From: an uncultured Acidobacteriota bacterium
GTDB lineage: Bacteria; Acidobacteriota; UBA6911; CAINFC01
NCBI GenBank assembly: GCA_903847975.1
Contig: CAINFC010000251.1
Span: forward strand, 1-64,000
DNA: 64,000 nt
Direction of reading: 5' to 3'
How positions within the stretch are numbered: the first letter of the stretch is position 1; every line of letters starts with the position of its first letter. The notes under the pieces were generated by a model. That model was not told where the DNA came from. It saw only the letters and a list, made by a program, of their open reading frames with translations, and made no database searches. Positions 3,814 to 20,751 of the stretch are shown here, one piece after another. Made by a program: the position numbers and the translations under genes.

Positions 3814-3893
3814 CTTTCTTCCCGCTCTTCCTTTCTTCCTGTAAGCCCAGTCATTGCACAGGAAGAGGGGAAGATCAGGAAGGAAGAAAGAAG
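3814..3893. repeat. Intergenic hairpin repeat, family B, copy 2
   Basis: Left arm CTTTCTTCCTGTAA and right arm CACAGGAAGAGGGGAAG form an imperfect 80-bp hairpin extended by flanking pyrimidine/purine tracts. It lies downstream of the small outer-membrane protein gene and upstream of the TonB-receptor promoter, so termination of the former is plausible. Confidence 0.75.
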
Positions 3894-4118
3894 CAATCAG
3901 GGCATTCCGGCTGGGGAGAGGGCCTTTTTGCCGGTTTTTCCGGGAAGACAGCTTCGCAAAAAGTCGAAATTTCATTTTGTTCTATCGTCCCGTGCGGTAC
4001 ACACGCAAGTCCCGTAATGGACGGCAGAACATAACAATACATACTTTGAGCCGCGCTGTTCCGCGTGTCGGCATCCTCCCGGGTCGTCTTCCCCAAGGCC
4101 GGCGGCACGCTGCGGCAA

Positions 4119-4148
4119 TTGACATCCATAATACCGGATTGCTACAAT
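4119..4148 (+). promoter_or_regulatory. Sigma-70-type promoter for the TonB-dependent receptor gene
   Basis: A consensus TTGACA at 4119-4124, an 18-bp spacer and TACAAT at 4143-4148. Transcription from it would begin about 70 bases before the ATG at 4223, whose AAGGAG ribosome binding site is at 4211-4216. The stretch 3894-4118 holds nothing else recognised. Confidence 0.65.
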
Positions 4149-4222
4149 CGACTTCGCGGGGCAGAGTCGTTTCCATTAGGACGGATTCATTTCCAAACAA
4201 CAGGAGACCCAAGGAGAACGCC

Positions 4223-7200
4223 ATGAAGCTAACCGGCTGCTTTCTTTTCCTTATTCTTGCGTTTGTTTTCTTGATCGGCGAGCCTCTGCTGGCTCAGAAT
4301 CCCGTGGTTTCCGGCCGGGTGACCGATTCGTCCGATGCCGTGATTCCCGGCGCGACCGTCACTCTGACCGCCCGGGCCACGGGTATGAAGGCCACCACCC
4401 TGACCAACGAGGAGGGCTACTTCGTGCTGCCACCGGTCGCTCCCGGCGCCTATGAGGCTTCCGCCGCCATGCAGGGTTTTTCGGTCAGCCGGGTGGAAAG
4501 CCTGACCCTGGAGGTGGGCCAGTCGCGCACCCTGAACTTCAAGCTGCAGATCGGGGAACTGCAGCAATCGGTGACGGTCACCGATACCGCCCCCCTGCTG
4601 ACCGTCAACCGCGCCGACCGCGGCGCGGTGGTCGAAAACAAATTCGTGGCCAGCATTCCCCTCAATACCCGCAATCCGCTGTTCCTGCTGACCATGGCTC
4701 CCGGCATCGTGGCCTACCGCGGAGCCGGCGACAACATCCTCAGCCAGAACCAGACCGGCGGGTTCCGCATCAATGGGGGGCGCAGCGCCATGAACGAGTT
4801 CCTTCTGGACGGAGCGGCCAACACCGGGACCTACAACAACATGCTGTCGGCCATTCCGCAGATCGATGCCGTCCAGGAGTTCAAAGTGGCCACCAGCCCT
4901 TATGCCGCGGAATTCGGAAGAACCGGCGGGGGCGTGGTCAGCTACAGTATCAAGAGCGGGACCAACGATTTTCATGCCACGGTTCACGAGTTCCTGCGCA
5001 ACAGCGTGCTGGACGCCACCGGGTTCAACACCAATCGCGCCGGGCAGACCAAATCCAGCTTCAAGCGGAACCAGTTCGGATTTACCGCCGGGGGGCCGGT
5101 CTACCTTCCCAGGCTGTATAACGGCAAAAACCGGACCTTCTGGTTTGCGGCCTACGAGGGGCTCCGGGAGCGCAGCTTTTATCCCTTTACCGGGACGCTC
5201 CCCACCAGCCGGGAAAAGCAGGGGGATTTCTCCCAGTCCCTGGACACCAACGGCGCGCTGCTGAGAATCTACGATCCGGCGACCACCCGGCTGGATCCCA
5301 ACCGCCCCGCCGGAACCACCCGCTACATCCGCGACCTGTTTCCCAACAACACGGTTCCCTCCAACCGGATCAACCCGGTGGCCCTGAACATTCTGAAATA
5401 CTATCCCAGCCCCAACCAGGCGGGAAGCGGCCTGAGCAACACCAACAATTTCTTCATCGCCGGGGCCCGCTCGCTGGATGCCAACCGCGTGGATCTGCGC
5501 ATCGACCACCAGCTCACCGAAAAGCACATGCTCTTCTTCCGCTACGACTGGTTCAGCAATCGCAACGCCCAGCCCCTGCTGTATGGCAACTTCGCCTCGC
5601 CGATCGAGACCCCGAACCGGATCCCGGGGATCAACTGGACGGTGAATCACACCTGGACGCTCTCTTCCCGGAACATCCTGGAGCACCATTTCTCGATGGC
5701 CGAAAGCGGGACCAACCGCATACCGCTGAGCATGGGCTTCGACCTCACCTCTCTGGGCTTTCCCAAGTCCATGGCGGACGGCATCCGCATCCAGTACTTT
5801 CCCCAGATCACCATCAGCGGCCTTTCTCAGCTGGGGCCCACCGGGACGGCCTATAACCAGGTTGTTTCCAGGACCTGGCAGTATGCCCTGGCCCTCACCA
5901 GCCTGCGCGGGTCGCACACCTTCAAGGCGGGGGTCGATTACCGCCGCTTTCCGGTGAGCATCGACCAGCAGTCCCCGCTGCAGATGAGCTCCAGCGGGTC
6001 GTTTACCGCCGGACCCAATCCCCAGGCCGCCACCAGCGGAACCGGCCGGGGCCTGGCCGACCTGCTGCTGGGCGTCAGCAGCGTAACCTACAACCACCGC
6101 CCGCTGGAAAGGCACGAGCATCCTTACTATGCGTTCTATTTCCAGGATGAATACCGCATCACCTCGAAGCTCACCCTGACCATGGGGCTGCGCTACAGCC
6201 TGGAGCTGCCCCGCACCGAATTCGAAAACAAATACGTTTTTCTGGACACGGTCAGCGCTTCCCCGATCCAGGGGAAGGTGCCGGGGATCAGCACCATTGT
6301 CGGCGGGGTGGGCTTCGTGGGGGTCAGCGGGCTGGGGCGGCGCACCCAGCGCGCGGACACCAACAACTGGGATCCGCGCCTGGGGCTGGCCTGGGCCATG
6401 AACAGCAAGACCGTGGTCCGCAGCGGGGTCGGCCTTTTCCGCCACCCGATCGTTCCCAACACCGACAGCTCCCTGGGCTTCGCCCGGGCGACCACCTCGA
6501 TTTTTGCCCAGCCGGACGGCGTCACTCCGCTCTACAACCTTTCCAATCCCTTTCCCAACGGCTTCCAGCAGCCCACCGGCAACAGCCTGGGGCTCTCGAC
6601 CAACCTGGGCCAGGCCATCAACGGACCGCTCCGCCAGCAGCGCCTGGGCTACTCCACCAACTGGAGCCTGGACGTGCAGCGCCAGCTGCCCCTGGCGGTG
6701 ACCGTCGACCTGGGATACTCGGGGGCCGCCAGCGTGGCCCTGCCGCTGACCATCCAGTACAACCAGCTGACTCCCGCGCAGCTTAAGGAGGGAACGGCGC
6801 TCAACGCCACGGTGACCAATCCTTTCTACGGGGTCATCACCGACCCGACCTCCACCCTGGGCCGCACCACCATTCAGAAGGGGCTGCTGCTCAAGCCCTA
6901 CCCGCAGTTCACCAGCTTCTCCGGCAACCAGGTGCCGAACGGGCACGCCATTTACCACGCCTTCCAGTTCAAGGCCGAGCGGCGCTTTTCGCAGGGGCTG
7001 GCCGTACTCTTCGCTTACACCCACAGCAAGACCATCGACAATGTCGGCGACTCCAACTGGCAGCAGGGGCCTCCGGCCACGCCGAACATCTACTGCTTTT
7101 CGTGCGAGCGCGCCCTGAGCGTGCTGGACATTGCCGACGTGGTGCGCTTCAGCTACCGCTACGACCTGCCCCTGGGCAAGAGCCGGCGCTGGCTGCAGTC

Positions 7201-7681
7201 CGGCCCGCTGGCCCACATCATCGGTGGCTGGGCGGTGGCCGGCATGTACACCTGGGACAACGGGCTCCCCATTTCCGTGAGCGGCCCGAACGACTCCAAC
7301 TCGTTCGGCGGCAGCCAGCGCCCGGACGGCACCGGGCAGAAATCGCGGCTGGACGCGAGCCGGAAGTACGTCGACGGCGCGCCCTACTTCAATGCGGCGG
7401 CCTTTTCCCGCGCGCCGCAGTTTACCTTCGGCACCGCCTCGCGCACCGTGCCGGATGTCCGCGCTCCCGGCACCGTCAACTGGGATGTGCTGATCGAAAA
7501 GCGCTTCCGCTTTACCGAGCGGATCGGGATGGAATTCCGGGCCGAGCTCTACAACGCCCTGAATCAGGTCATTTTTGCCGGGCCGACCACCCTGATCACC
7601 TCCGCGGATTTCGGGAAGATCCGCCTGAACCAGGTCAACACCCCGCGGCAGGTGCAGTTCGGCATGCGCCTGACCTTCTGA
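4223..7681 (+). CDS. Oar-like TonB-dependent receptor with carboxypeptidase-regulatory domain
   Basis: A 1152-residue outer-membrane receptor. Signal peptide at residues 1-24 (cut after LLA-Q). A carboxypeptidase-regulatory/Cna-B-like domain spans about 27-115 (VSGRVTDSS... then a GYFVLPPVAPG turn). A plug follows at roughly 120-270, then a long beta-barrel ending in the C-terminal phenylalanine (MRLTF). This is the Oar-type architecture, abundant in Acidobacteriota and thought to import or bind large substrates using TonB energy. ATG 4223 is chosen over the longer open frame because of AAGGAG at 4211 and the signal peptide. It faces a sulfatase gene 45 bp downstream on the other strand. The neighbouring sulfatase and GH106-like genes suggest a glycan ligand, which is inferred. 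The TonB/ExbBD operon at 33.6-36.9 kb could supply energy. Confidence 0.92.
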   Translation: MKLTGCFLFLILAFVFLIGEPLLAQNPVVSGRVTDSSDAVIPGATVTLTARATGMKATTLTNEEGYFVLPPVAPGAYEASAAMQGFSVSRVESLTLEVGQSRTLNFKLQIGELQQSVTVTDTAPLLTVNRADRGAVVENKFVASIPLNTRNPLFLLTMAPGIVAYRGAGDNILSQNQTGGFRINGGRSAMNEFLLDGAANTGTYNNMLSAIPQIDAVQEFKVATSPYAAEFGRTGGGVVSYSIKSGTNDFHATVHEFLRNSVLDATGFNTNRAGQTKSSFKRNQFGFTAGGPVYLPRLYNGKNRTFWFAAYEGLRERSFYPFTGTLPTSREKQGDFSQSLDTNGALLRIYDPATTRLDPNRPAGTTRYIRDLFPNNTVPSNRINPVALNILKYYPSPNQAGSGLSNTNNFFIAGARSLDANRVDLRIDHQLTEKHMLFFRYDWFSNRNAQPLLYGNFASPIETPNRIPGINWTVNHTWTLSSRNILEHHFSMAESGTNRIPLSMGFDLTSLGFPKSMADGIRIQYFPQITISGLSQLGPTGTAYNQVVSRTWQYALALTSLRGSHTFKAGVDYRRFPVSIDQQSPLQMSSSGSFTAGPNPQAATSGTGRGLADLLLGVSSVTYNHRPLERHEHPYYAFYFQDEYRITSKLTLTMGLRYSLELPRTEFENKYVFLDTVSASPIQGKVPGISTIVGGVGFVGVSGLGRRTQRADTNNWDPRLGLAWAMNSKTVVRSGVGLFRHPIVPNTDSSLGFARATTSIFAQPDGVTPLYNLSNPFPNGFQQPTGNSLGLSTNLGQAINGPLRQQRLGYSTNWSLDVQRQLPLAVTVDLGYSGAASVALPLTIQYNQLTPAQLKEGTALNATVTNPFYGVITDPTSTLGRTTIQKGLLLKPYPQFTSFSGNQVPNGHAIYHAFQFKAERRFSQGLAVLFAYTHSKTIDNVGDSNWQQGPPATPNIYCFSCERALSVLDIADVVRFSYRYDLPLGKSRRWLQSGPLAHIIGGWAVAGMYTWDNGLPISVSGPNDSNSFGGSQRPDGTGQKSRLDASRKYVDGAPYFNAAAFSRAPQFTFGTASRTVPDVRAPGTVNWDVLIEKRFRFTERIGMEFRAELYNALNQVIFAGPTTLITSADFGKIRLNQVNTPRQVQFGMRLTF

Positions 7682-7726
7682 TTCCGCACTCCGCACCGGG
7701 AGCCGGGAAGCCGGCCGGGGCCGGGC

Positions 7727-9187
7727 TCAGGGGGCGGCTGCGGCCGCCGGCTCCTGGGGCCTGGCCCCGGGAGCATAGGAGATGCTGCCGTGGGGGGCCA
7801 GGGTGAAGCCGAACTTTTCCACGTAGTAGCCGGCCGGACGAAACTCGTCCCGGATCTGTCGCAGCGCCGACTGCAGCCGCCGCTCCATTTGAGCAGCCAG
7901 CGGGGCGCGGGAGGGCTGTTCGAGCAGGTTGTCCGTCTCCAGAGGATCCTGCCGATGGTCAAACAGCAGCCAGGGTCCGGAAAGCCTGCGCACGTAGGTG
8001 TAACGCGCGGTGCGGATGGCCCGGTATTCCTGGCCGGGCCCCTTTTCCACCCAGGGCGCAACCCCCATGAAGAGGGCTTCCCGGTCCGCATTCCGGCTTC
8101 CCCCGCGGCGCACCGCCGCCGAAAGGTCCCGGCCTTCCACGGCGGGCGGAACCGGCGCGCCGATCAGCGACAGCAGGGTGGGCATGATGTCGGGGGTGGT
8201 GATCGGGGTGTCGACCACCGCCCCGGATTTTCCCTGGACCGCCGGGTAGCGCAGCAGGAACGGCACATGCGCCGATTCGTCCCAGGCTACCTGCTTGGTG
8301 GTGGGCCGGATCCGGTGGGAGCCCATCATCTCTCCGTGGTCGGAGGTGAAAACCAGGATGGTATTCTGCTCCAGCCCGGTGTCCCGCAGTGCTTTCCACA
8401 AATCCCCCAGGCACTGGTCCAGGGCGGCGATGTGGGCGTAATACCCCTGGGCCTCGATGCGATTTTCCGGCGTTTGCATTTCCGGGGGCACGTTGGCGAG
8501 GAAGCGTATTTTTTCCGGCGGGAAGAGCGCTCGGAACTCATCGAGGGCGCTGGCGTGCGGGAAGTGGGGAATTCCGTAGGATATAAACAGGGCGAAAGGC
8601 TTGTCCTGGCGCCCGTGGGTTTGCAGGTATTCCCGGGCGTCCCGGGTCTGGGCGTAGGCGTCGTAGCCTTCCCAGGTCTGCATTTCCGGGGAGGCTCCGC
8701 TGTAGTAGTGGGACTTCCGGTAATCGTGATCGCACTCGGCCGCTCTCCAGTAGTCGAATCCCTGCCTCCGTTCCGGCGGGATGAAGGACTTGCGGCCGTG
8801 GCCGTCCAGGTGCCATTTGCCGATATAGCCCGTCTGGTAGCCGGCATCCCGGAGGACTTCCGCGATCGTCACTTCCCGGTCGGGGAGATGGGCGTCGTTT
8901 AAAAACATGCCGGTCGAGGTGGGGAACCGGCCGGTAAGCAGCGCGGCCCGGTAGGGGGTGCATACCGGGCACACCGATACGGCGTTGCGGAAGTTAAGGC
9001 TGGCCCGGGCAAGCGAATCCAGCTGCGGGGTGCGCACGTTGGGGTCTCCCCCGTAGCCGGTGGCCGAGGCGCGCAGCTGGTCGGCAAAGACGAACAGCAG
9101 ATTCGGCCGGCTTCGGGCCGCACCGGCGGCCGGAAAAACGGCAGCAGAAAAAAGGAGAAGCGTCAGGAGGATCGTACTTTTTTTCAT
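7727..9187 (-). CDS. Secreted sulfatase (formylglycine-dependent, S1 type)
   Basis: A 486-residue protein with a Sec signal peptide (about 1-23). It shows the sulfatase metal site near FADQLR and the activation signature C-x-P-x-R at C76-R80 (CTPYRAALLTG), where the cysteine is converted to formylglycine. The second family signature GKWHLDG follows. FTSDHGEMMG supplies further metal ligands. It hydrolyses sulfate esters, most likely on sulfated polysaccharides or sugars, in the periplasm or outside the cell. No formylglycine-generating enzyme is seen in the window. It converges on the TonB receptor gene. The specific sulfated substrate is not deducible. Confidence 0.93.
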   Translation of the reverse strand: MKKSTILLTLLLFSAAVFPAAGAARSRPNLLFVFADQLRASATGYGGDPNVRTPQLDSLARASLNFRNAVSVCPVCTPYRAALLTGRFPTSTGMFLNDAHLPDREVTIAEVLRDAGYQTGYIGKWHLDGHGRKSFIPPERRQGFDYWRAAECDHDYRKSHYYSGASPEMQTWEGYDAYAQTRDAREYLQTHGRQDKPFALFISYGIPHFPHASALDEFRALFPPEKIRFLANVPPEMQTPENRIEAQGYYAHIAALDQCLGDLWKALRDTGLEQNTILVFTSDHGEMMGSHRIRPTTKQVAWDESAHVPFLLRYPAVQGKSGAVVDTPITTPDIMPTLLSLIGAPVPPAVEGRDLSAAVRRGGSRNADREALFMGVAPWVEKGPGQEYRAIRTARYTYVRRLSGPWLLFDHRQDPLETDNLLEQPSRAPLAAQMERRLQSALRQIRDEFRPAGYYVEKFGFTLAPHGSISYAPGARPQEPAAAAAP

Positions 9188-9300
9188 AATCTGAATTCTA
9201 ACTCACATCGGTGCGGAGAGCCCATCGGTGGGCCGGGAAGGCGCAGCGGGCTTCCGGTCTTGACGGCGGCGGCTTCCCTTTTTATACTCATTCCGGCGGA

Positions 9301-9593
9301 CCTGAATGACGGAGCGGCAACAAGTCGAGAACCCCAAGGGGGTTCCGGATCACAGCCCGGGGTTGCGCCGCAGGCGCTACCCCGGGTAGGTGGGTTTGTT
9401 TGAGAATCAGCCCTGTAAGGGCTGCGCAGACACCTGGTACTGCCGGATTGAGCGCAACCCTTTCCGGGTTGTCCGGTCCGAACATTCCTACCCAGGGTAG
9501 GCGCGAAGAGCGCCAACCCTGGGCTGCGATCCGAAGCCCATTCAGGGCTTCCGCCAGGGCTCGACTTTTTACAGGAGCATCCTGAATGACGGA
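9301..9593. repeat. Composite inverted-repeat element, locus 2, flanked by 13-bp direct repeats
   Basis: Two hairpin units stand head-out in inverted orientation: one (about 9328-9425) with the GCGCC-GCAG-GGCGC central stem, the other (about 9440-9560, reversed) with GGCGCGAAGAGCGCC. Small heads GAACCCCAAGGGGGTTC and GAAGCCCATTCAGGGCTTC mark the outer ends. The exact 13-mer CCTGAATGACGGA occurs at 9301-9313 and again at 9581-9593, just outside the element, as expected for a target duplication. The element fills the gap between the sulfatase and the GH106-like gene. Confidence 0.85.
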
Positions 9594-9614
9594 ATCCGGT
9601 TCCAGGGAGAACTT

Positions 9615-11600
9615 ATGACCACCAGACGACACCCGGCTTGCTTTATGTTCTTTTTCATGGCGGCTTTTCTGTTCGGCATCCTTTCCGGCGCTTTCCGGGG
9701 CTTCGCTGCGGACGGGCCCTTCCTGGGAGAATTCCGCGACCCGCCCCGGGAGTTTTCGGTCATGCCCTTCTGGTTCTGGAACGACGACCTGCAGGACCGG
9801 GAAATCGTCCGGCAGATCGCCGATTTCGAGGCCCACGGCGTTTACGGCTTTGTGATCCACCCGCGCGTCGGGCTGCCACGGGACATCGGCTGGATGTCGC
9901 CGCGCATGATCCACGCCATGAACGTCGCCCTGGAGGAGGCCAAACGCCGCCGCATGTACGTGGTTCTCTATGACGAGGGGATGTACCCCTCCGGCTCCGC
10001 CTCGGGCCAGGTGGTGGCCCGTAATCCCGGGCACGCCGCCCGCGGGCTGGTGAAGGTGGCCCTGAAGGGGGACGAGAAGCTGCCGCTCGGGCCGGGGCAG
10101 AAGCTGGTGAAGGAGATCCGGAATGCGGACGGCAGCCGCAGCGCCATCGTCGAAAAGCCATCCCAGGGAATCATCCGCGGGCTGCACTACATCGGGGACG
10201 AGGCCGGCCCCCTGAAGGAGGACTCGCCGCCGGCCGGCGATATCCTCAACCCGGAGGCGGTGGACAGTTTCATGGAGCTGGTCTACGACCGCTTCGCCCG
10301 GGAGTTCGGCTCCTATTTCGGCTCCACCATCCTGGGGATTTTTACGGACGAGCCGTCGCCGCTGGGCCGCGGCGGGGTGAAGGGGATGCTTCCCGGGAAC
10401 GCCGCCCTGCTGCCGCAGATTGAACGCATCCTGGGCTACTCCATCGAGCCGCACCTGGCCGAGCTCTGGGACGGCGGTTCCGCCGATGCCGCCCGCTACC
10501 GGGAGGACTACCACCGCGCCATCAGCATCTGCCTGGAGGAAAATTACTACCGGCGGCTGAGCCGCTGGTGCGCCGATCACAGGATCGCCCTGACCGGCCA
10601 CCCGGCCTCCTCGATGGATATCGGCGCAGAGCGCTACTTTCAGATTCCCGGGCAGGACCTGGTCTGGCGTTACGTGGTTCCGGGGAAGAGCGCCCTGGAG
10701 GGCCAGCACTCCACTATGGCCAAGTGTGCCAGCAGCGCCATGATCCACCTGCTGCGGAGGCGCAACGCCAACGAGCTCTACGGGGCCTACGGGCACAACC
10801 TGACCTTCGAGGAGATGCAGTGGCTTGCCGGCTGGGGGCTGGTCCGGGGGCACAACCTGCTGTACCCTCATGCCTTTTACTACTCGGTGCGCGGTCCGCG
10901 CCGGGACGAGCGCCCCCCGGACGTGGGGCCCAACTCCGGCTGGTGGGACCGGTACCGCCCCTATGCCGATTTCTGCCGCCGCCTCTGCTGGCTGAACACC
11001 GACTCGCAGCACCGCGCCGAGGTGGCCATCCTGGCCGATGCCAACCGGCTGCCGGACCAGTCGGCCAGGGTGTGCTTTCAGAACCAGATCGATTTCAACT
11101 ACCTGGAAGTCCGGCACCTGTGGGAAGAGGCCCGGGTGGAAAAGGACGGCGTGCGCCTGGCCGGGATGGTCTATCGCGCGGTGGTCCTGGACGGCTGGAC
11201 ATCGCTGCCGGAAAAAGCCCTGCCCGCGCTGCGGCAGTTGGCCCGCCAGGGGCGGCTGATTTTCTGGAAGGAGCCGCTCGCGCAGCTTTCGGGGCCCCAA
11301 ACGGCTGTGGCTTCCTCCGCCGGGCAGCTGACGGCCGCGCTGCGCTCCCTGGTCAGGCCCGACCTGGTGCTGCAGCCCGCCTCGGAAAACATCCGCTACC
11401 GGCACGTGGTCAAAAACGGGCAGCATGTCTACATGCTTTTCAATGAGGAGAACAGCCCGGTCGAGGCAAAAGTCCAGGTGTCCGCCAGGGGCGGGCGCCG
11501 CTGGCTGGATCCGTTTCGCGGCGAGGTGGACGGCACGGCAGCGGGAGAAAAAGTGCTTTTCCGCCCGTACGAAATGAAGCTGCTCCAGGTCAGCCCCTGA
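9615..11600 (+). CDS. GH106-like glycoside hydrolase (possible alpha-L-rhamnosidase family), exported
   Basis: A 661-residue protein with a hydrophobic signal segment (about 8-31). It then shows the GH106-type opening: a VMPFWFWNDDL strand, GVYGFVIHPRVGL and YVVLYDEGMYPSGSASG, typical of these (beta/alpha)8 enzymes where a short glycine/proline-rich loop follows the Y-D-E strand. Later segments GIFTDEPSP and ALTGHPASS carry likely catalytic-pocket acids. Family members remove terminal rhamnose or related sugars from plant or microbial polysaccharides. Full GH106 enzymes are often about 1000 residues, so this is a shorter version lacking C-terminal jelly-roll domains. The start codon is 22 bp from the repeat element's right-hand direct repeat, so its promoter may lie inside the repeat. 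Sugar specificity is uncertain. Confidence 0.75.
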   Translation: MTTRRHPACFMFFFMAAFLFGILSGAFRGFAADGPFLGEFRDPPREFSVMPFWFWNDDLQDREIVRQIADFEAHGVYGFVIHPRVGLPRDIGWMSPRMIHAMNVALEEAKRRRMYVVLYDEGMYPSGSASGQVVARNPGHAARGLVKVALKGDEKLPLGPGQKLVKEIRNADGSRSAIVEKPSQGIIRGLHYIGDEAGPLKEDSPPAGDILNPEAVDSFMELVYDRFAREFGSYFGSTILGIFTDEPSPLGRGGVKGMLPGNAALLPQIERILGYSIEPHLAELWDGGSADAARYREDYHRAISICLEENYYRRLSRWCADHRIALTGHPASSMDIGAERYFQIPGQDLVWRYVVPGKSALEGQHSTMAKCASSAMIHLLRRRNANELYGAYGHNLTFEEMQWLAGWGLVRGHNLLYPHAFYYSVRGPRRDERPPDVGPNSGWWDRYRPYADFCRRLCWLNTDSQHRAEVAILADANRLPDQSARVCFQNQIDFNYLEVRHLWEEARVEKDGVRLAGMVYRAVVLDGWTSLPEKALPALRQLARQGRLIFWKEPLAQLSGPQTAVASSAGQLTAALRSLVRPDLVLQPASENIRYRHVVKNGQHVYMLFNEENSPVEAKVQVSARGGRRWLDPFRGEVDGTAAGEKVLFRPYEMKLLQVSP

Positions 11601-11602
11601 TC

Positions 11603-11619
11603 CCTTTTCCGGGAAAAGG
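11603..11619. terminator. Possible bidirectional terminator hairpin
   Basis: CCTTTTC/GAAAAGG hairpin with a tight CGG loop in the 43-bp gap between two convergent genes. The A- and T-rich stem sides give short U-runs in either direction. The GC part of the stem is small, so it is weak. Confidence 0.4.
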
Positions 11620-11643
11620 ACCAGGGGGCCGGAAAACGGGAGA

Positions 11644-12555
11644 CTACCTGGCTTTGGGGGCGAGCATGGCCTGGCGGATCGTGGAAAGCTCCTGGAAAAT
11701 TTTATCCGCTTCGGCTTTCATTTTGGCCCCTTTCAGTTTTCCGCTGCGGCAGTCGACGGCAAACGCGGTCAGCTTGCGATAAAAGGTCAGCTTGTCGGGC
11801 GACTCGCACTTCAGCCCGAGCCTGGCATCGGCTTGGGCGAAGGCCTCGAAAACCTTCAGAGCCGTCTGCGGCCAGTACTCCGCCAGGGTGGCCTTCTGCT
11901 TGACGCGTAGGTCGCGTATCCTGTCCCAGATGTCCCCCTTGGGGTCGTTGGCCGTGAAATAGCCCATCAGGTAAGCGGTCTCGATGGCAAACCCGTACAG
12001 GCTGTCCTCCAGGTAGTGCGCGGTTTCCGGGGTGGAAAGGGCTGTCGGCAGGGAGGCCGCGAATTCGTCGGCCAGTTCGTTCAGCATGGCCAGGACATCG
12101 GCGGTTTCGGGCTGGCCGGCCGCCTTGCGCAGGGCGGCAAAGGTGTGTCCGGCCCAGTCGGCCTGGGAGCGCAGATCCAGGGTGGTGAAAATCTCGTCCA
12201 GGTTGCGGCTGATCAGGGCCAGGTCCTGGTGCTTGCGGAAGGCGATGGCGTAGGCGGCGTCGAACTGCTTCATGCCGGCATACTGGCGGAGCTGGCATTT
12301 GCTCCAGGTCGGGTCGGGTTTGACCGGGGCGACCAGCTGGGGCTGGTAGGAGATGCCGATTTCCTTAAGCCGATAAACATTGCCGTAGAGGTCCCGCAGG
12401 TTTTCGGTCTTGAGGATTCTGGGTACTTCCGCCGACAGGGTCTTCAGTGCCGCGGCGACATCCCGGGCCGGGTCGGCGGCGGGTTTCTGGGCGGAAATGG
12501 CCGCCGGGGAAAGTAGGAAAAGGGCGATAACCGCAGCCGCGAACCGTTTTCTCAT
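11644..12555 (-). CDS. Secreted helical protein of unknown function
   Basis: A 303-residue protein with a clear Sec signal peptide (about 1-22, cut near ISA-Q). The mature part is predicted mostly helical, with many leucine/alanine heptad-like stretches and the Cys-containing segments WSKCQLRQY, LKCESPDK and VDCRSGK. No catalytic motif or known family was recognised. It is convergent with the GH106-like gene and divergent from the ATP-citrate-lyase-like pair, so it is probably transcribed alone. A periplasmic location is inferred from the signal peptide. Confidence 0.7.
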   Translation of the reverse strand: MRKRFAAAVIALFLLSPAAISAQKPAADPARDVAAALKTLSAEVPRILKTENLRDLYGNVYRLKEIGISYQPQLVAPVKPDPTWSKCQLRQYAGMKQFDAAYAIAFRKHQDLALISRNLDEIFTTLDLRSQADWAGHTFAALRKAAGQPETADVLAMLNELADEFAASLPTALSTPETAHYLEDSLYGFAIETAYLMGYFTANDPKGDIWDRIRDLRVKQKATLAEYWPQTALKVFEAFAQADARLGLKCESPDKLTFYRKLTAFAVDCRSGKLKGAKMKAEADKIFQELSTIRQAMLAPKAR

Positions 12556-12941: not shown

Positions 12942-14210
12942 ATGCAGATTTCCGGACTGAAGTACGGTGCCAGGATTCTGGATCTGATCGAATTCCCCTA
13001 TGCCCCCTTCCTGACGGCCGACGCCACCAAAGAGCAGATCCAGCAACTTCTCAACCAGCACAGGAAGCTGGTGGTCAAGCCCTTTTTCTCCGGCGGGGTG
13101 GGGAAAAAAGGCAAAGCCGGGCTGGTGCGCATCGTCGACAACCTGGTCGACGCCCTGCAGGCCAAAAAAGAACTTTATTTCGCCAGCCACCAGTACGGCT
13201 CCAAGACCGTCACGGCCAGCGGGGTGACCTTCGAGGCCTTCGTCCCCTCGGAGATCGAAGTCTACTTCAGCATCGCCGCTTCCACCACCTTCCGCAAGCC
13301 CATTTTCACCCTCAGCCCGTTCGGAGGCGTGGACATCGAGGCCCTGCCCGCCGGCAAAAAGCAGGTCACCTGGATCGACCCGTTCATCGGGCTGAAATCG
13401 TTCGACATCACCAACGCGCTGACCGACCTCGGCTGCCCGGAAGCCTACATCTCCCCGCTGGTGCAGAATCTGCCCAAGCTATGGAGCCTGTACGACAACT
13501 ACGGCCTGCTTACCCTGGAGCTCAACCCCATCCGCATGCTGAAAAGCGACAACCGGCTGATCCCCGTGGCCTGCGACCTGAAGGCCCAGTTCGACCAGGA
13601 CAACCCGGCCTGGAAAAGGCTGGGCCTGCCGGCTACGGTGTTTCAGTCCGACATCACCCCGTTCGAATCGGAAATCAACGAGCTGCGCACCTACCAGGGG
13701 CAGAGCGACGTCCTGGAGCTCAATGCCCGGGGCACCATCATCCCGTTCATGTTCGGCGGCGGCGCCAATTCCGCGGCCACCGAAACGCTGGGCAGCTCGG
13801 CCATCTTCGCCTCCGATTTCGGGGGCAACCCGCCCTATGAAAAGATGTACGAGATCAGCCGGATCGTTTTCAAGCACTGGCTGCCGAAGGCCTCGGTCCT
13901 GCTGATCATCGGCGGCAAGGCCAACAACACCGACATCTACGTCACCTTCAAGGGGATTTTCGATGCCCTGCGGGACCACTTCACCCGTTACGGCAAGACC
14001 CCCATCTACACCGTGGTTGGCCGCGGCGGCCCCAACCTGATCAAAGGCATGTTCTACGGCAAGGACATCCTGGACACCTTCCGCCTGCCCTACCGGATGT
14101 TCGGTTACGACACTTCCATGATCCAGGTGCTGGAGCACGCCCGGCGCATCGACGCCTGGTGGCGGGAGGAGGGGCGGATGGAATATCAGACGAAAAGGTT
14201 TGACGCATGA
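12942..14210 (+). CDS. ATP-citrate lyase-like small subunit (ATP-grasp / succinyl-CoA-synthetase beta-like)
   Basis: A 422-residue homologue of the N-terminal part of eukaryotic ATP-citrate lyase and of bacterial AclB. Matching blocks run in order: the ATP-grasp strand KLVVKPFFSGG near 42-52, LTLELNPIRML (metal-binding N/D pair) near 188-198, IIPFMFGGGANSAATET, VLLIIGGKANNTDIYVTFKG and VVGRGGPN. In the family this half binds ATP and citrate and phosphorylates the catalytic histidine of the partner subunit. The stop codon overlaps the next start (ATGA at 14207-14210), so both subunits should be translationally coupled. Genuine citrate cleavage is an inference. A related acyl-CoA synthetase on another carboxylate is possible because the partner's lyase domain is divergent. 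Confidence 0.85.
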   Translation: MQISGLKYGARILDLIEFPYAPFLTADATKEQIQQLLNQHRKLVVKPFFSGGVGKKGKAGLVRIVDNLVDALQAKKELYFASHQYGSKTVTASGVTFEAFVPSEIEVYFSIAASTTFRKPIFTLSPFGGVDIEALPAGKKQVTWIDPFIGLKSFDITNALTDLGCPEAYISPLVQNLPKLWSLYDNYGLLTLELNPIRMLKSDNRLIPVACDLKAQFDQDNPAWKRLGLPATVFQSDITPFESEINELRTYQGQSDVLELNARGTIIPFMFGGGANSAATETLGSSAIFASDFGGNPPYEKMYEISRIVFKHWLPKASVLLIIGGKANNTDIYVTFKGIFDALRDHFTRYGKTPIYTVVGRGGPNLIKGMFYGKDILDTFRLPYRMFGYDTSMIQVLEHARRIDAWWREEGRMEYQTKRFDA

Positions 14211-16930
14211 GGCAGCAGAAGACAAAACCATTTCCCTATTATGTCGGGATCCACTCCCTCGAGGAGCTGGTCACCCGCGATTCGCGCGTTTGCGTGGTCA
14301 ACATCCTCGGCAACGAAAGCCGCAAGGTGACCCCGGTCTCCCACGAGTACAGCGGCGGGAACGTGGTCGCCGGGGTGCAGTACGGCCGTCGGGGGGAGCT
14401 GGAGACCCGCCTGGGCCCCATCCCGGTCTACAGCAGCATTCGCGACGTGATGGACCAGGGCCTTTTCTTCGATATCGGTGTCATCTACCTGCCCCCGCTG
14501 GCCGTCAGCCAGGCGGTGGCGGAGCTGGTCCGCTACAATGAAAACCTGAAGCGGGTGGTCATCATTACCGAGAAGGTTCCCACCCGCGACTCGCGCAACT
14601 GCCGGTTTGTCTGCCAGGAATCGGGGGTCGACCTGGTGGGCGCCAACTGCCTGGGGATGGCCAACGTCTGGGACCAGGTGCGGGTCGGCGGCGCCCTGGG
14701 GGGCGACAGCCCGGCCGAGGCGCTGTCGCGCGGGTCGGTGGCCATTCACTCCAATTCGGGCAATTTCACCACCACCATCGCCGAGTACCTGCGCTCCGCC
14801 GGATTCGGCATCAGCACCGCGGTCAGCTCCGGCAAGGACGTCTACATCCATTTTGCCCTGCCGGAATTTCTCTACGCCGCCCAGAACGACCCGCGCACCC
14901 GGGCGGTGGCGCTCTACGTGGAGCCCGGCGGCTACTATGAAAAGCAGGCCCTGGACTGGATCGCCGAGCGGCGCTTCGGCTTCAACAAGCCCATCATCGT
15001 CTGCGTCACCGGCCGGTGGAAGAAGGACCTGCAGCGCTCCTGCGGCCATGCCGGGGCCCTGGCCGGCAGCGGCGACGACGCCGAGTCCAAGGAAAAGTGG
15101 TTCGACGACTACTTCGGGCTGCCGGTCTTCGATCCGGCCGCGGCGGCCGTCGGCCGGCGCGGGGTGCGCATCGCCTCCATCCAGCACTTCCCGGAGGCGA
15201 TGAAGGCGGTCTTCGCCGCGATGGGCGAAGAGCCCGATTTTCCGAGCCGGGGCGATCTGTCGCTGAAGCTGTGGATCGGCGACACCCTGCTGAAGCCGCC
15301 GCCGGCGCTGGATCTGCCGGTGGTCCGGGCCATGCCGCCCTACGACCAGCAGATCAAGGAGATCAACAAGCAGGTCGGCGCCCACTACCTGCGGCAGAAC
15401 ATGGCCGACAAGTCCGGCGCCTCGCGCATGGACGCCATGACCCAGGTCAGCGAGCTGCACGGACGCTCCATCCTGGAGCTGTCGCGCTACACCATGGAGG
15501 AAAACATCTACTTCAGCCTGGCCAAGATCATGCCCGAGCCCCGGGATATTCCCACGCTGAATCTGCTGCTGAACCTGTTCCTGAAAATGGACGAGCGGCG
15601 CATGGACCTGGTGGACGTGGCCCGCAACAACGGCTGCACGCCCAACGCCTACATCGGCTCCCAGATCGCGCTGATCGGCAACCGCGCGCTGCTGGCCAAA
15701 GCGACCGTCTACACCCGGTTTCTGATCGATCTGATCCGCGAGTTCGAAATCAGCGAGCTGGTGCAGGAATTTCCCGCGGCGGTGGACGAGTACCTGCAGG
15801 CCCACCTGCTGACCGCGGAGCCGGTGCGCAAGACCGACGTCTCCGAGCTGCTGCGCAAGGAGATCATCAAGGCTTCCCCCGCCGTTTTCCCGATCCGGGT
15901 GCTGCAGCACATCCTGCAGCTGGCGGAGGCCAGGGACCTGGGGATCCGCGACCAGTACGAGTTCCTGCTGGGGGGCATCGGGGTGGCGCTCTTCTGGAAG
16001 CCCATGCTGGAAAAGCGTATCAGCCGGAAGGTGGTCGAGGACGCGGTCACCTACTTTTACATCATCAGCCGGATCGTGGCCTATTCGGTCATCGACCGGG
16101 AGCACAACCGCTTCTGGCACGAGCTGATCGATGCCCGCATTTCCAACCTGCACAACAGCTTTACCGAAAATGCCTTCGCCATACTTTTCAACCGCAAGCC
16201 GGACGAAACGGAATTGTTCGAATTCAAGGCGCTGATCGGGCTGACCCTGACCAACGGCCCGGGAACCCTTTCCGCCAAGGGGGCCAAGGAATCGGTCAGC
16301 GCCCGCAATCACATCGCCACCTCCTTTCTCGGCTTTCTCACCAACACCGGGCTGGCCCACGGAGGCAATGGTTTCGAGGCCATCGCTTTTCTGCTGGAGC
16401 ATTTTGCCGGCGACCGCTGGGAGCCCGGCCGCGAGGATGCGGCGGTGAATCTGCAGGAAATGGCCCGCGAGGCGGCCCGGCGCTACCGCGACTACCGCCG
16501 GAAGACCAAGGAGGAGAATGCCCAGCCGGTCCGGCCCATTCCCTGCGTCAACCACCCGGTGTTCAAGGGGAACGACATCAACATCGACCCGCGGGAGGAT
16601 TTTATCCGCAAGGAGATGGCGGCGCGGGGCATCTACAACCTGTTTCACGAGTTCTATCACCAGCTGGTCCTGGCCCTGTTCCAGGAAGGGGTCACCAAGA
16701 ACGTGTTCTGCGTCAATATCGACGCGGTGCTGGCGGTGATCATCCTGAAGCTGGTCTGGCAGGACCGGCGGGAGGGGCGCATCAGCGAAAAGATGATCCA
16801 GGATCTGTCGTTCACCCAGTTCCTGTACGGGCGGGCGATCGGCGTGGCCGCCGAGATCGCCGACCACCGCGACCGCGGGCAGGATATGGACTGCCGCACG
16901 CCGCAGGACAAGATCCAGTTCGTCGTCTGA
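14207..16930 (+). CDS. ATP-citrate lyase-like large subunit with long divergent citrate-synthase domain
   Basis: A 907-residue protein. Residues about 1-330 are succinyl-CoA-synthetase-alpha-like: a CoA-binding region with HSNSGNFTTT near 181-190, and the phosphohistidine motif GHAGALAGSGDDAESK with H281. Residues about 360-907 resemble the citrate-synthase-like lyase domain: SFTENAFAILF, LTLTNGPGTLSAKGAKES, FLTNTGLAHGGNGFEA, NHPVFKGNDINIDPRE with H783, and FCVNIDAVLAV with D839. Bacterial AclA is about 610 residues, so about 300 residues are extra, mainly in the middle. The histidine of the usual DHGP motif is replaced by asparagine (N683), and the arginine after the GH motif is proline. It may make acetyl-CoA and oxaloacetate from citrate, or act on another 3-hydroxy acid. 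It overlaps the small-subunit gene by four bases. Confidence 0.8.
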   Translation: MRQQKTKPFPYYVGIHSLEELVTRDSRVCVVNILGNESRKVTPVSHEYSGGNVVAGVQYGRRGELETRLGPIPVYSSIRDVMDQGLFFDIGVIYLPPLAVSQAVAELVRYNENLKRVVIITEKVPTRDSRNCRFVCQESGVDLVGANCLGMANVWDQVRVGGALGGDSPAEALSRGSVAIHSNSGNFTTTIAEYLRSAGFGISTAVSSGKDVYIHFALPEFLYAAQNDPRTRAVALYVEPGGYYEKQALDWIAERRFGFNKPIIVCVTGRWKKDLQRSCGHAGALAGSGDDAESKEKWFDDYFGLPVFDPAAAAVGRRGVRIASIQHFPEAMKAVFAAMGEEPDFPSRGDLSLKLWIGDTLLKPPPALDLPVVRAMPPYDQQIKEINKQVGAHYLRQNMADKSGASRMDAMTQVSELHGRSILELSRYTMEENIYFSLAKIMPEPRDIPTLNLLLNLFLKMDERRMDLVDVARNNGCTPNAYIGSQIALIGNRALLAKATVYTRFLIDLIREFEISELVQEFPAAVDEYLQAHLLTAEPVRKTDVSELLRKEIIKASPAVFPIRVLQHILQLAEARDLGIRDQYEFLLGGIGVALFWKPMLEKRISRKVVEDAVTYFYIISRIVAYSVIDREHNRFWHELIDARISNLHNSFTENAFAILFNRKPDETELFEFKALIGLTLTNGPGTLSAKGAKESVSARNHIATSFLGFLTNTGLAHGGNGFEAIAFLLEHFAGDRWEPGREDAAVNLQEMAREAARRYRDYRRKTKEENAQPVRPIPCVNHPVFKGNDINIDPREDFIRKEMAARGIYNLFHEFYHQLVLALFQEGVTKNVFCVNIDAVLAVIILKLVWQDRREGRISEKMIQDLSFTQFLYGRAIGVAAEIADHRDRGQDMDCRTPQDKIQFVV

Positions 16931-16945
16931 TCGTCCCCGCCCGAA

Positions 16946-17278
16946 CCGGACGTGCAAGCCGTTAAGGATTTGTATTTGGCCGGGTTCTCGCGGAAGCCCT
17001 GAAGGGGCTTCGGATCGCAGCCCGGGGTTGGCGCGCTTCGCGCCTACCCCGGGTAGGGATTGTCCAGCCATGGCGTGTGTTTGCGCAGCCCTTTCCGGGC
17101 AGGAATTCAAACAAATCCGCCCACCCGGGGTAGCGCCTAAGCGGCGCAACCCCGGGCTGTGATCCGGAACCCCTTTCGGGGTTCTGAGGTTTTTTGCGAG
17201 ATTATCTTTGCTGGTGGGTCGGTAAAAAAATCGGGCTGGCGCCTTCCGGACGTGCGGGCCGTTAAGGATTTGTATTTG
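16946..17278. repeat. Composite inverted-repeat element, locus 3, within 33-bp direct repeats
   Basis: A unit with the GGCGCGCTTCGCGCC central stem (about 16992-17060) is followed by an inverted unit with GCGCC...GGCGC (about 17120-17190). The whole is bracketed by near-identical 33-bp segments at 16946-16978 and 17246-17278, beginning CCGGACGTGC and ending GGATTTGTATTTG. They differ at two adjacent bases (AA versus GG) and are offset by exactly 300 bp. The left copy begins 16 bp after the stop of the citrate-lyase-like gene. The tail at about 17185-17230 (TTTTTTGC, ATCTTTGCTG) resembles the one at locus 1 (about 174-215). Confidence 0.85.
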
Positions 17279-17542: not shown

Positions 17543-17707
17543 ATGAGCCATGCCCGAGAGAGTCTGCGGCCTGTTGCGAAAATCACCGCGCCGGATTGCG
17601 GAATGCCGCTGCACATGAATATGGATGGCGGCCATGGCCCCCCCCCCCCCCCCCCCGAATTTCCTGCGGAGTCAGAACAAAATTACAAAGGGATGGAGAC
17701 AAAATGA
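17543..17707 (+). CDS. Small upstream ORF (54 aa) with poly-proline run, coupled to the kinase gene
   Basis: GGAGG at 17531-17535 lies seven bases before ATG 17543. The frame encodes 54 residues with six consecutive prolines (from the poly-C tract), and its TGA (17705-17707) overlaps the kinase ATG at 17704 in an ATGA arrangement. No homology is recognised, and most of the peptide has low sequence character. The placement suggests a translated leader that feeds ribosomes to the kinase start. Poly-proline is a known ribosome-stalling sequence relieved by EF-P. If the C tract gains or loses bases, the frame changes and one register reads straight into the kinase. Whether it is translated is unproven. 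Confidence 0.45.
   Translation: MSHARESLRPVAKITAPDCGMPLHMNMDGGHGPPPPPPEFPAESEQNYKGMETK
17638..17656 (+). repeat. 19-nt poly-C homopolymer tract
   Basis: Nineteen consecutive C residues lie 47 bp upstream of the kinase ATG, inside the small leader ORF. Such tracts are slippage-prone and are used elsewhere for phase variation. The exact length is also the kind of base call that sequencing gets wrong. Confidence 0.9.
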
Positions 17708-20700
17708 GGATTCTCCATCTGGAAGACGATCCGGCCGATGCGCAACTGGTCGGTGAAACACTCCGCTCCGGGGGGTTGGAAGCGGAAATCACGGTAACCG
17801 GAACAAGGGAAGGCTTTCTGGAGGAGCTGGAGAAAGCTCTTCCGGAGGTGGTGCTGGCTGATTACCTGCTACCGGGATTCACCGGCCTGGATGCTATCGC
17901 GCTCTTCGGCGATCGCATCAACGAAGTTCCCTTTATTATGGTAACCGGGTCACTCGGGGAAGACACGGCCGTCGAGCTCTTCCGGATGGGCATTACCGAT
18001 TACATTCTTAAAAACCGGCTGGATAAACTTTGCCCGGCGATAAGCCGCGCGGTACGGGAGAGAGAGCAGGCCCGGCAGGTCGAGATCGAACACAGGGAGC
18101 GGCTGCGATACGAAAACCGACTCCGGCTGGCAACGGAGGCGTCCGGAATCGGTTTCTTTTCCTGGGATTTGGGAACGGGACAGGAGCTATTGTCCGACGC
18201 CGCCCTCCAAATCCTGGGGGGATCGCCGGACAGCAGGGTGACTTTTCAGGACTGGCTGGCGTCGGTCCACCCGGAAGACCGGGAGACAATAGAACGAATG
18301 CTGAACCGGGCCATCAGGGAGGACCGTGATTTCCAGGCCGAATATCGAATCCGGCTGCCGGACGGAGCGGTCCGATGGATTTCCGCTCTCGGGCGTTCCA
18401 CCCAGAGACCAGACGATTCCTCGCGGCGCATCGAAGGGGTGATTTTGGACATCACCGACCGTAAAATGGCCGAAGAGGAAAGCCACACGCTCACTACCGG
18501 GCTGGAGCAGCTGGTGGAGCAACGCACGGCGGAGCTGCACGCCAGCGAGGAAAAGTACCGTTCCATGGTGGAAATAACCAGCGACTGCATCTGGGAGTGC
18601 GATGAAAAGGGACGGTTAACCTATCTGAGTCCCCGGTTTCACGATCTTTCCGGTTACCGGCCCGATGATTTCATCGGAAAGAGTTTCCGTGAACTTGTGC
18701 GGCAGGACCAATCCGAACAGTTCGTGGAAAAAGCCATGGATCTGATCCATGGCCGGCGGCCCGGCCATGGCCTCGAATTTGTCCTCAGGCGTCCGGACGC
18801 AAAATATACGGTCGTCGAGGTCAGCGGTGTGCCGATCTTCGATGCCGACGGCGCTTTCCGGGGGATGAGGGGAATCAGCCGTGACATCACCGAGCGCCGC
18901 CAGCTCCAGGACCGGATGGAACAGCTGCTGCTGGAGCGGCACGCTCTTCTCGCCCGGATTCCGGTCGGAGTATTCCAGTACCGGTGTGCTGCCGATGGCC
19001 GCAACCGTTTCGAATATGTCAGCCCGAACTTCTGCTCGTGGTTCGGAGAAACCCACGAGCGGATTCTGGAGGATCCGCGAACCGTATACCGGGCCATTCA
19101 CCCGGATGACCTGGGCTCCCTCCTGGCAGAGATGTCGCGAGTAAAATTTCTGGTGAAGCCTTTTTCCTGGACGGGGCGCCTGCGGAACGGAGAGGAAATC
19201 CGCTGGGTGCAGATCGGATCGATTCCGACTTTACAGGCCAACGGGGATATGATCGGGAACGGGACGGTGGTCGACGTAACCGAAAGGGTTCGGCTGGAGG
19301 AGGAGCTTCGGCAGGCGCGGCTGGCATCGGATGCTGCCAACCTCGCCAAAAGCGAGTTCCTGTCCAACATGAGCCATGAGATCCGTACGCCCCTGAACGG
19401 GATTCTGGGCATGACCCAGATCCTGGGCCTGACCAGTCTGGATCGCGACCAGCAGGAATGCCTGCAGACCCTGCGCCGGAGCTCGCAAAGCCTGCTCTCG
19501 CTGATCAACGGCGTGCTGGACCTCTCCAAGATCGAAGCGGGGCAGATGCACCTGGAGGAGACCGATTTCTTCCTGCGGGCCAGCCTGCAGGAGGTGATGC
19601 AGACGCAGGTTTCCCTGGTCGGCGCAAAGGGACTCCGGCTGGAAACCGAAATCCCGGCGTCCGTGCCCGATGATATCCGTGGGGACTCCCTGCGGCTGAG
19701 GCAGATCCTTCTGAATCTCCTCGGGAATGCCATCAAGTTTACCGAGGCCGGGCGGATCCGCATCTCCGTGAGCGCCTGCGAGCGGAAGGGGAAGCGGGCT
19801 CTTTTTCTTTTCCGCGTGTCCGACAGCGGGATCGGAATTGCCCCGGAGGCCATGGAGCGGATTTTTCAGCCCTTCAGCCAGGCCGACGGTTCGACCACCC
19901 GTCTTTACGGGGGCACCGGGCTGGGGCTGCCTATCAGCCGCCGCCTGGCGGAGCTGATGGGCGGCAGGCTCTGGGCGGAAAGCGCGCCGGGCGAGGGCAG
20001 TACATTTTTCCTGGAGGTGCCGTTCGGAATTTCCGGGACGAAATTGCGCTCCCGGGTGGGCCAGGACGATTTGTGGCGGCAGGACACCTGGGAGGGTCCG
20101 TCCCTGCGTATCCTGCTGGTCGACGACGAGCCGACCAACCGGCTGGTTACGGCGCGGTACCTGGGCCTGTCCGGACACACCGTGCTGGAATCGCCCGATG
20201 GAGAGGATGCCCTGGAAAAGCTGAGGGCTGAGCCGGTGGACCTGATTCTGATGGATATCCAGATGCCGAAAATGAGCGGGATCGAAGCGGTACGGAGAAT
20301 CCGGGAAAGGGAGGGGGAGACCGGCCGGCATACTCCGCTGATCGCGCTTACCGCGCGGGCCCTGCGGCACGAGCAGGAGCAGATCCTCGGCGAAGGGTTC
20401 GAGGGCTATGTTTCAAAACCGGTCGACTTCCGCGTGCTGTTCCGGGAGATCCGCCGCTGCCTCGGGATCGACAGCGCGGAAGCCGTGGAGGCTTCGGAGG
20501 TGCCGGTCGTGCCGGAGCGGATGGCGATTTCGGAACGGGACAAGGCGGAGCTGATCCCGCTCCTCGCCCGGATCGGGGAAATGCTGGGCGGCCACCGCCT
20601 GGAAGTCTTCGACCGGATTGAGGAGCTGGAGCGGTTGCTGCCGGACCGGGAAACGGTCGGCGCGTTGCGGATGCAGGCCCGGAAATACGATTTCAAAGCA

Positions 20701-20751
20701 GCGGCCAAACAACTGGCCGAGCTGCACCGCGAGCTCGACCTCCCCGAATGA
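17704..20751 (+). CDS. Hybrid histidine kinase: receiver-PAS-PAS-PAS-HisKA-HATPase-receiver
   Basis: A 1015-residue cytoplasmic sensor kinase with no membrane segment. An N-terminal receiver (about 1-120, phospho-acceptor D53 in VVLADYLLPG) is followed by three PAS/PAC repeats (about 135-265, 310-430 and 440-560; PAC ends such as GVILDITDRK and GISRDITERR). The HisKA H-box is FLSNMSHEIRTPLNG with H558. The HATPase shows N- and G-boxes (NLLGNAIKF, DSGIGIA, GGTGLGL). A C-terminal receiver has D851 (LILMDIQMP) and lysine in VSKPVD. A final helical stretch of about 80 residues lacks a clear phosphotransfer histidine. It probably relays an intracellular signal to an unlinked regulator. ATG 17704 follows GGGATGGAG and is overlapped by the stop of the small upstream ORF. 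Confidence 0.93.
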   Translation: MRILHLEDDPADAQLVGETLRSGGLEAEITVTGTREGFLEELEKALPEVVLADYLLPGFTGLDAIALFGDRINEVPFIMVTGSLGEDTAVELFRMGITDYILKNRLDKLCPAISRAVREREQARQVEIEHRERLRYENRLRLATEASGIGFFSWDLGTGQELLSDAALQILGGSPDSRVTFQDWLASVHPEDRETIERMLNRAIREDRDFQAEYRIRLPDGAVRWISALGRSTQRPDDSSRRIEGVILDITDRKMAEEESHTLTTGLEQLVEQRTAELHASEEKYRSMVEITSDCIWECDEKGRLTYLSPRFHDLSGYRPDDFIGKSFRELVRQDQSEQFVEKAMDLIHGRRPGHGLEFVLRRPDAKYTVVEVSGVPIFDADGAFRGMRGISRDITERRQLQDRMEQLLLERHALLARIPVGVFQYRCAADGRNRFEYVSPNFCSWFGETHERILEDPRTVYRAIHPDDLGSLLAEMSRVKFLVKPFSWTGRLRNGEEIRWVQIGSIPTLQANGDMIGNGTVVDVTERVRLEEELRQARLASDAANLAKSEFLSNMSHEIRTPLNGILGMTQILGLTSLDRDQQECLQTLRRSSQSLLSLINGVLDLSKIEAGQMHLEETDFFLRASLQEVMQTQVSLVGAKGLRLETEIPASVPDDIRGDSLRLRQILLNLLGNAIKFTEAGRIRISVSACERKGKRALFLFRVSDSGIGIAPEAMERIFQPFSQADGSTTRLYGGTGLGLPISRRLAELMGGRLWAESAPGEGSTFFLEVPFGISGTKLRSRVGQDDLWRQDTWEGPSLRILLVDDEPTNRLVTARYLGLSGHTVLESPDGEDALEKLRAEPVDLILMDIQMPKMSGIEAVRRIREREGETGRHTPLIALTARALRHEQEQILGEGFEGYVSKPVDFRVLFREIRRCLGIDSAEAVEASEVPVVPERMAISERDKAELIPLLARIGEMLGGHRLEVFDRIEELERLLPDRETVGALRMQARKYDFKAAAKQLAELHRELDLPE

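Follow-up and report, generated by a model that had tools for sequence, protein, structure and literature searches.

What enzyme is encoded by the two overlapping genes at positions 12942 to 16930 of a 64,000-nucleotide stretch of DNA from an uncultured Acidobacteriota bacterium (contig CAINFC010000251.1, positions 1 to 64,000; the whole stretch is here called the window), and why is its large subunit so long? The initial annotation had described a divergent, two-subunit, ATP-citrate-lyase-like enzyme with a large subunit of 907 residues, and the open reading frames, the Pfam domains and the matches in the PDB agree with that description. It had also suggested a new subclass, which is not supported: the pair is a further member of the type II ATP-citrate lyase (ACL) family. 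Hugler and Sievert (2011, cited in PMC3522073) had already proposed this family for the Riftia symbiont. Thiel et al. 2012 (PMC3522073) and Rubin-Blum et al. 2019 (PMC6315080) took it up, and the postulated type II genes of Magnetococcus are Mmc1_3638/3639 (PMC6783814). We consider it very likely that the pair works as a type II ACL, converting citrate, CoA and ATP to acetyl-CoA, oxaloacetate, ADP and inorganic phosphate. Most of the added length of the large subunit is, by profile comparison and structural modelling, a degenerate duplicate of its lyase domain, placed in tandem with it.

Both genes lie on the forward strand. The first (12942..14210) encodes a small subunit of 422 residues, of the AclB or citryl-CoA synthetase (CCS) large-subunit type, and the second (14207..16930) the 907-residue large subunit, of the type II AclA kind. 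Stop and start codons overlap in the four bases ATGA (14207..14210), an arrangement that is consistent with translational coupling, and the adjacent gene order is kept in relatives. The small subunit combines, as ACLs do, an ATP-grasp domain (ATP-grasp_2, PF08442, above the Pfam cut-off) with a citrate-binding domain (Citrate_bind, PF16114, 62.9 bits against a gathering score of 26.8). Its best PDB match is the large subunit of Hydrogenobacter CCS (E=5.5e-34), with Chlorobium ACL at 1.3e-14; its earlier identification as the ATP-grasp half of ACL holds. The segments ANNTD and GRGGP are invariant in 19 homologues, and ANNT and RGGPN align with the citrate-pocket residues of human ACLY.

The synthetase part of the large subunit (residues 1-340, 14207..15226) carries CoA_binding and Succ_CoA_lig domains, both above the Pfam cut-off. 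As in ACLs, the predicted phosphohistidine of the GHAGA motif, His281 (codon 15047..15049), lies within the CoA-ligase domain and is invariant in 23 homologues. The best PDB match of the subunit is the CCS small subunit 6hxq_A (E=6.3e-37), followed by Chlorobium ACL (7.5e-17). In fold, an AlphaFold model of the whole chain (predicted local distance difference test, pLDDT, 75; predicted TM score, pTM, 0.57) has the Chlorobium ACL alpha subunit as its top match.

The type II assignment is based on sequence and on primer sites. The primers acl2F1 and acl2R1, which target the large subunit of type II ACL, translate to VAKEEWF and NGFEAIA (PMC3522073). Their best matches in the window both fall inside the large-subunit gene, in the expected order and orientation and 1306 bp apart: acl2F1 at 15082..15103 and the reverse complement of acl2R1 at 16367..16387, both on the forward strand and each with 4 mismatches, the peptide NGFEAIA being identical at the latter. 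No site with 3 or fewer mismatches to either primer occurs in the window, and one relative (locus L003) has a single mismatch to acl2R1. The window pair further shares with the type II ACLs (symbionts of Riftia, Tevnia, Lamellibrachia and Escarpia, Thioflavicoccus mobilis, Magnetococcus Mmc1_3638/3639) the two-subunit composition, the order of the primer-site peptides and the presence of a 2-oxoacid:ferredoxin oxidoreductase in the same genomes. Unlike those carriers, the host of the window is not known to be an autotroph.

A homologue scan with one genome per species gave 23 loci; in 22 of these the homologue is near full length, with 47-83% identity. The record titles include KSB1, Ignavibacteriae/Melioribacteraceae, Bacteroidetes, Calditrichota, Krumholzibacteriia and SAR324. 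Wherever the contig extends that far, a small-subunit gene lies directly upstream of the large-subunit homologue. A tblastn search of plasmids added 19 records from Sinorhizobium, Paraburkholderia, Microvirga, Caballeronia, Aminobacter, Gemmobacter and Polymorphobacter, 18 of which align over 80% or more of the protein, with identities of 41-47%. The pair is not a chance arrangement, since the same two-gene operon layout is found again in 22 other genomes and on plasmids. Because only one of 99 relatives has a full-length homologue, simple vertical inheritance within the host's phylum looks unlikely on this sequence distribution.

We then asked what the extra residues are. The excess of about 300 residues over AclA, claimed from the sequence alone, was confirmed against the 617-residue Chlorobium chain 6hxj_B. 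In a profile-profile comparison built on the first 23 homologues, residues 376-635 matched residues 632-907 at 83.5% (E=8e-6). With plasmid homologues included (31 sequences), hhalign aligned residues 400-635 (15404..16111, forward strand) with residues 636-907 at 97.2 and 97.4% (E=3.5e-11 and 1.6e-11). The 204 aligned columns were collinear, and the reversed, eight column-shuffled and N-terminal-domain controls gave 0.1-0.4%. Modelled alone, residues 376-635 reached a pLDDT of 80 and a pTM of 0.74, and the top 26 PDB matches of this model were all citryl-CoA lyase (CCL) or ACL lyase modules (probability 0.99-1.00, TM up to about 0.5, E from 3e-3). A search of PDB chains with the sequence profile of residues 400-635 alone gave no match. 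The profile self-match and the fold matches rule out an unrelated insertion, so that the large subunit consists of a synthetase domain followed by a dead lyase-like domain and a live lyase domain. In the homologue alignment, the first copy shows no conservation of the motifs HGGNG, NHPVFKG or NID. This copy probably pairs with the active one and replaces part of the lyase-domain assembly of type I ACL.

The second copy (residues 636-907, 16112..16927, forward strand) is the catalytic lyase, or citrate-synthase-like, domain. NCBIfam gave a weak citryl-CoA lyase match at residues 651-854, and the profile of the domain matched the citryl-CoA lyase 6hxp (E=2.5e-4) in an alignment where DHG faces NGP and AHGG faces AHGG. 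The initial annotation had noted the GHAGA, NHPVFKG and NID motifs and an Asn at the histidine position of DHGP. All are present and invariant in the 23 homologues, as Asn683 (NGPG, codon 16253..16255), His783 (16553..16555) and Asp839 (16721..16723) together with H281; it had overlooked a second conserved histidine, His718 (AHGGNGFEA, 16358..16360). His718 and R796 are likewise invariant in the 23 homologues, and all six residues are equally so in the plasmid homologues; the lyase-site set spans KSB1 to rhizobial plasmids. By known correspondences, the DHGP histidine is ACLY H900 and pig citrate synthase H238, the AHGG histidine is the PLHG-type H274 of citrate synthase, which is not known from ACLY, the NHPVFKG histidine is ACLY H975 and citrate synthase H320, the Arg of DPRE (R796) is R329 of citrate synthase, and the Asp of NID is ACLY D1026 and citrate synthase D375. 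The site is thus citrate-synthase-like (H718, H783, R796, D839) apart from the Asn at the H238 position. The invariance of these four residues over very distant homologues points to selection on the lyase site.

The known systems differ from the window pair in several respects. Type I ACLs (Chlorobium AclAB, human ACLY) share its ATP-grasp and citrate-binding domains, the CoA-binding and ligase part with the GHAGA histidine and a C-terminal lyase domain; however, they have a single lyase domain with the DHGP histidine, whereas the window protein has two lyase-like domains, the degenerate one making it about 300 residues longer, with Asn683 and a citrate-synthase-type His at 718. The sequence match of the pair to type I ACL is also weaker than that to CCS. 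In the two-enzyme system of CCS and CCL, CCS provides the closest solved sequences to both synthetase parts, and CCL shares the AHGG histidine; in the window, however, there is no separate citryl-CoA lyase gene for the pair, the lyase domain being fused to a synthetase subunit and duplicated, with Asn for the DHG histidine. Citrate synthase belongs to the same fold family as the lyase domain, and its His-His-Asp-Arg set is kept; the window pair differs from it by its coupling to an ATP-dependent synthetase and by the Asn at the pig H238 position.

In the mechanism that we propose, the ATP-grasp subunit would phosphorylate H281 of the large subunit, and the phosphoryl group would then activate citrate held by the Citrate_bind domain. 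Attack by CoA would give citryl-CoA, which the C-terminal lyase domain would cleave by means of H718, H783, R796 and D839, Asn683 taking the position usually held by the DHGP histidine. Residues 400-635, having lost the catalytic residues, would pair with the active lyase copy.

Several observations weigh against this reading. Neither a purified type II enzyme nor type II biochemistry was found in the literature searched, which likewise yielded no close, characterised homologue with ordinary activity. The histidine that CCL and ACLY have in DHGP is replaced, the Pfam citrate synthase family PF00285 has no match in the large subunit, whose lyase domain is too divergent (12 of the 23 homologues match PF00285 at E up to 1), and the AlphaFold model has low confidence in the loops of the active site (685-699, 715-720 and 783-787), too low to show whether these residues cluster. 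As for gene neighbourhoods, the genes beside the pair in the window (sulfatase, rhamnosidase-like, hybrid kinase) are uninformative on citrate, and most of the non-proteobacterial loci have no citrate-related neighbours; those of KSB1, Ignavibacteria and Bacteroidota have no informative shared neighbours.

The Asn683 substitution at a substrate-site position also favours an alternative, a type II-like acyl-CoA synthetase/lyase that acts on another substrate, such as 2-methylcitrate, a tricarballylate-related acid, citramalate or malate. The Gemmobacter plasmid copy adjoins tcuAB tricarballylate genes, with transporter and thioesterase genes nearby, and the Paraburkholderia copies lie near dctA, a C4-dicarboxylate transporter gene. 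We consider this alternative unlikely, in view of the Citrate_bind domain above its cut-off, the alignment of ANNT and RGGPN with the citrate pocket of human ACLY and the citrate (Si)-synthase gene that lies tail to tail with the operon in the sole full-length carrier among the 99 relatives (genome G097, locus L046, 6748-12195). Moreover, citrate cleavage is reported in Magnetococcus, where a type II ACL is the only candidate (PMC6783814). Plasmid copies are also accompanied by tripartite tricarboxylate transporter, thioesterase and two-component genes, and one lies near a 2-hydroxycarboxylate transporter gene. The substrate is very probably citrate, because of the Citrate_bind domain, the tricarboxylate uptake genes beside plasmid copies and the neighbouring citrate synthase; other hydroxyacyl substrates are less well supported. 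In L046, two opposing reactions, those of type II ACL and citrate synthase, are encoded side by side.

The direction of the reaction can be considered from the gene content of the carriers. Six genomes, including the four closest homologues, have aconitase and no canonical citrate synthase (loci L003-L006, L008 and L012; genomes G100-G103, G105 and G109), and two of them have annotated HMGL-family proteins, which represent isopropylmalate synthase, citramalate synthase and HMG-CoA lyase but no Re-citrate synthase. This would fit an enzyme that mainly makes citrate, with gain of ATP, in hosts lacking citrate synthase. We regard such a role as very improbable: the window's own genome and most other carriers have a citrate synthase, the completeness of these metagenome-assembled genomes is uncertain, and the reductive direction accounts for the same gene set. 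Aconitase is present in seven genomes that lack a strong match to citrate synthase (again of uncertain completeness), which suggests reductive or reversible use. An alpha subunit of 2-oxoacid:ferredoxin oxidoreductase, an enzyme common in anaerobes, was detected in 16 of 16 carrier genomes tested (12 above the family cut-off), and in L017 its gene lies downstream of the ACL pair. The single citrate synthase gene of the window's genome is clustered with 2-oxoacid:ferredoxin oxidoreductase, succinyl-CoA synthetase, aconitase and malic enzyme genes. There, cleavage is the most likely direction for the type II ACL, which would supply acetyl-CoA or take part in a reductive tricarboxylic acid (TCA) cycle segment; reductive TCA cycle activity is reported in Riftia symbionts (PMC3522073). 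The loss of the DHGP histidine and the death of one whole lyase-like domain might suggest a pair with no lyase activity that works solely as a synthetase of citryl-CoA or another acyl-CoA, but this is hardly credible given the invariance of H718, H783, R796 and D839 over very distant homologues.

Around the pair, the window encodes a TonB-dependent outer-membrane protein, a sulfatase and a rhamnosidase resembling glycoside hydrolase family 106 upstream (3854-12555), which suggest a polysaccharide-degrading host, and a hybrid histidine kinase of 1051 residues downstream (17596-20751). An antisense open reading frame (14186-17149, minus strand, 987 residues) was judged to be a shadow of the GC-rich large-subunit gene; the frames opposite the large subunit are partly open in several relatives too. 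In SAR324 (L024, 3888-13752), the ACL pair is flanked by a sulfate adenylyltransferase-like gene on one side and dsrAB-like genes on the other, as read from their translations, suggesting a sulfur-based metabolism. On the Aminobacter plasmid pUSP3, typed as conjugative (L062, 15465-18210), a phospholipase gene of the cyclic oligonucleotide-based antiphage signalling system (CBASS) type and a nucleotidyltransferase gene follow just downstream of the pair.

In the accessible parts of the literature found, type II ACL is still called putative and its size is left unexplained, and we found there no description of the lyase duplication or of the altered histidine set. We tentatively offer a broader scenario, rather less likely than not: type II ACLs may be a lineage that arose by tandem duplication of the lyase, one copy becoming a dead partner and the other keeping or regaining a citrate-synthase-type site. 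This would place them, as a pseudo-dimeric form, between citryl-CoA lyase and citrate synthase. In the same scenario, the family would be spread on plasmids, and its role in the citrate catabolism of heterotrophs would be at least as large as that in carbon fixation. The dead duplicated lyase and the citrate-synthase-like site give concrete predictions on the assembly of type II ACL, and they bear on where ACL cleaves citryl-CoA, a matter of dispute (PMC10115795), and on the origin of citrate synthase. Type II ACL is taken as a marker of carbon fixation; the position of its gene next to those for tricarboxylate uptake, on plasmids of heterotrophs that live in soil or with plants, calls for caution in inferring autotrophy from it.

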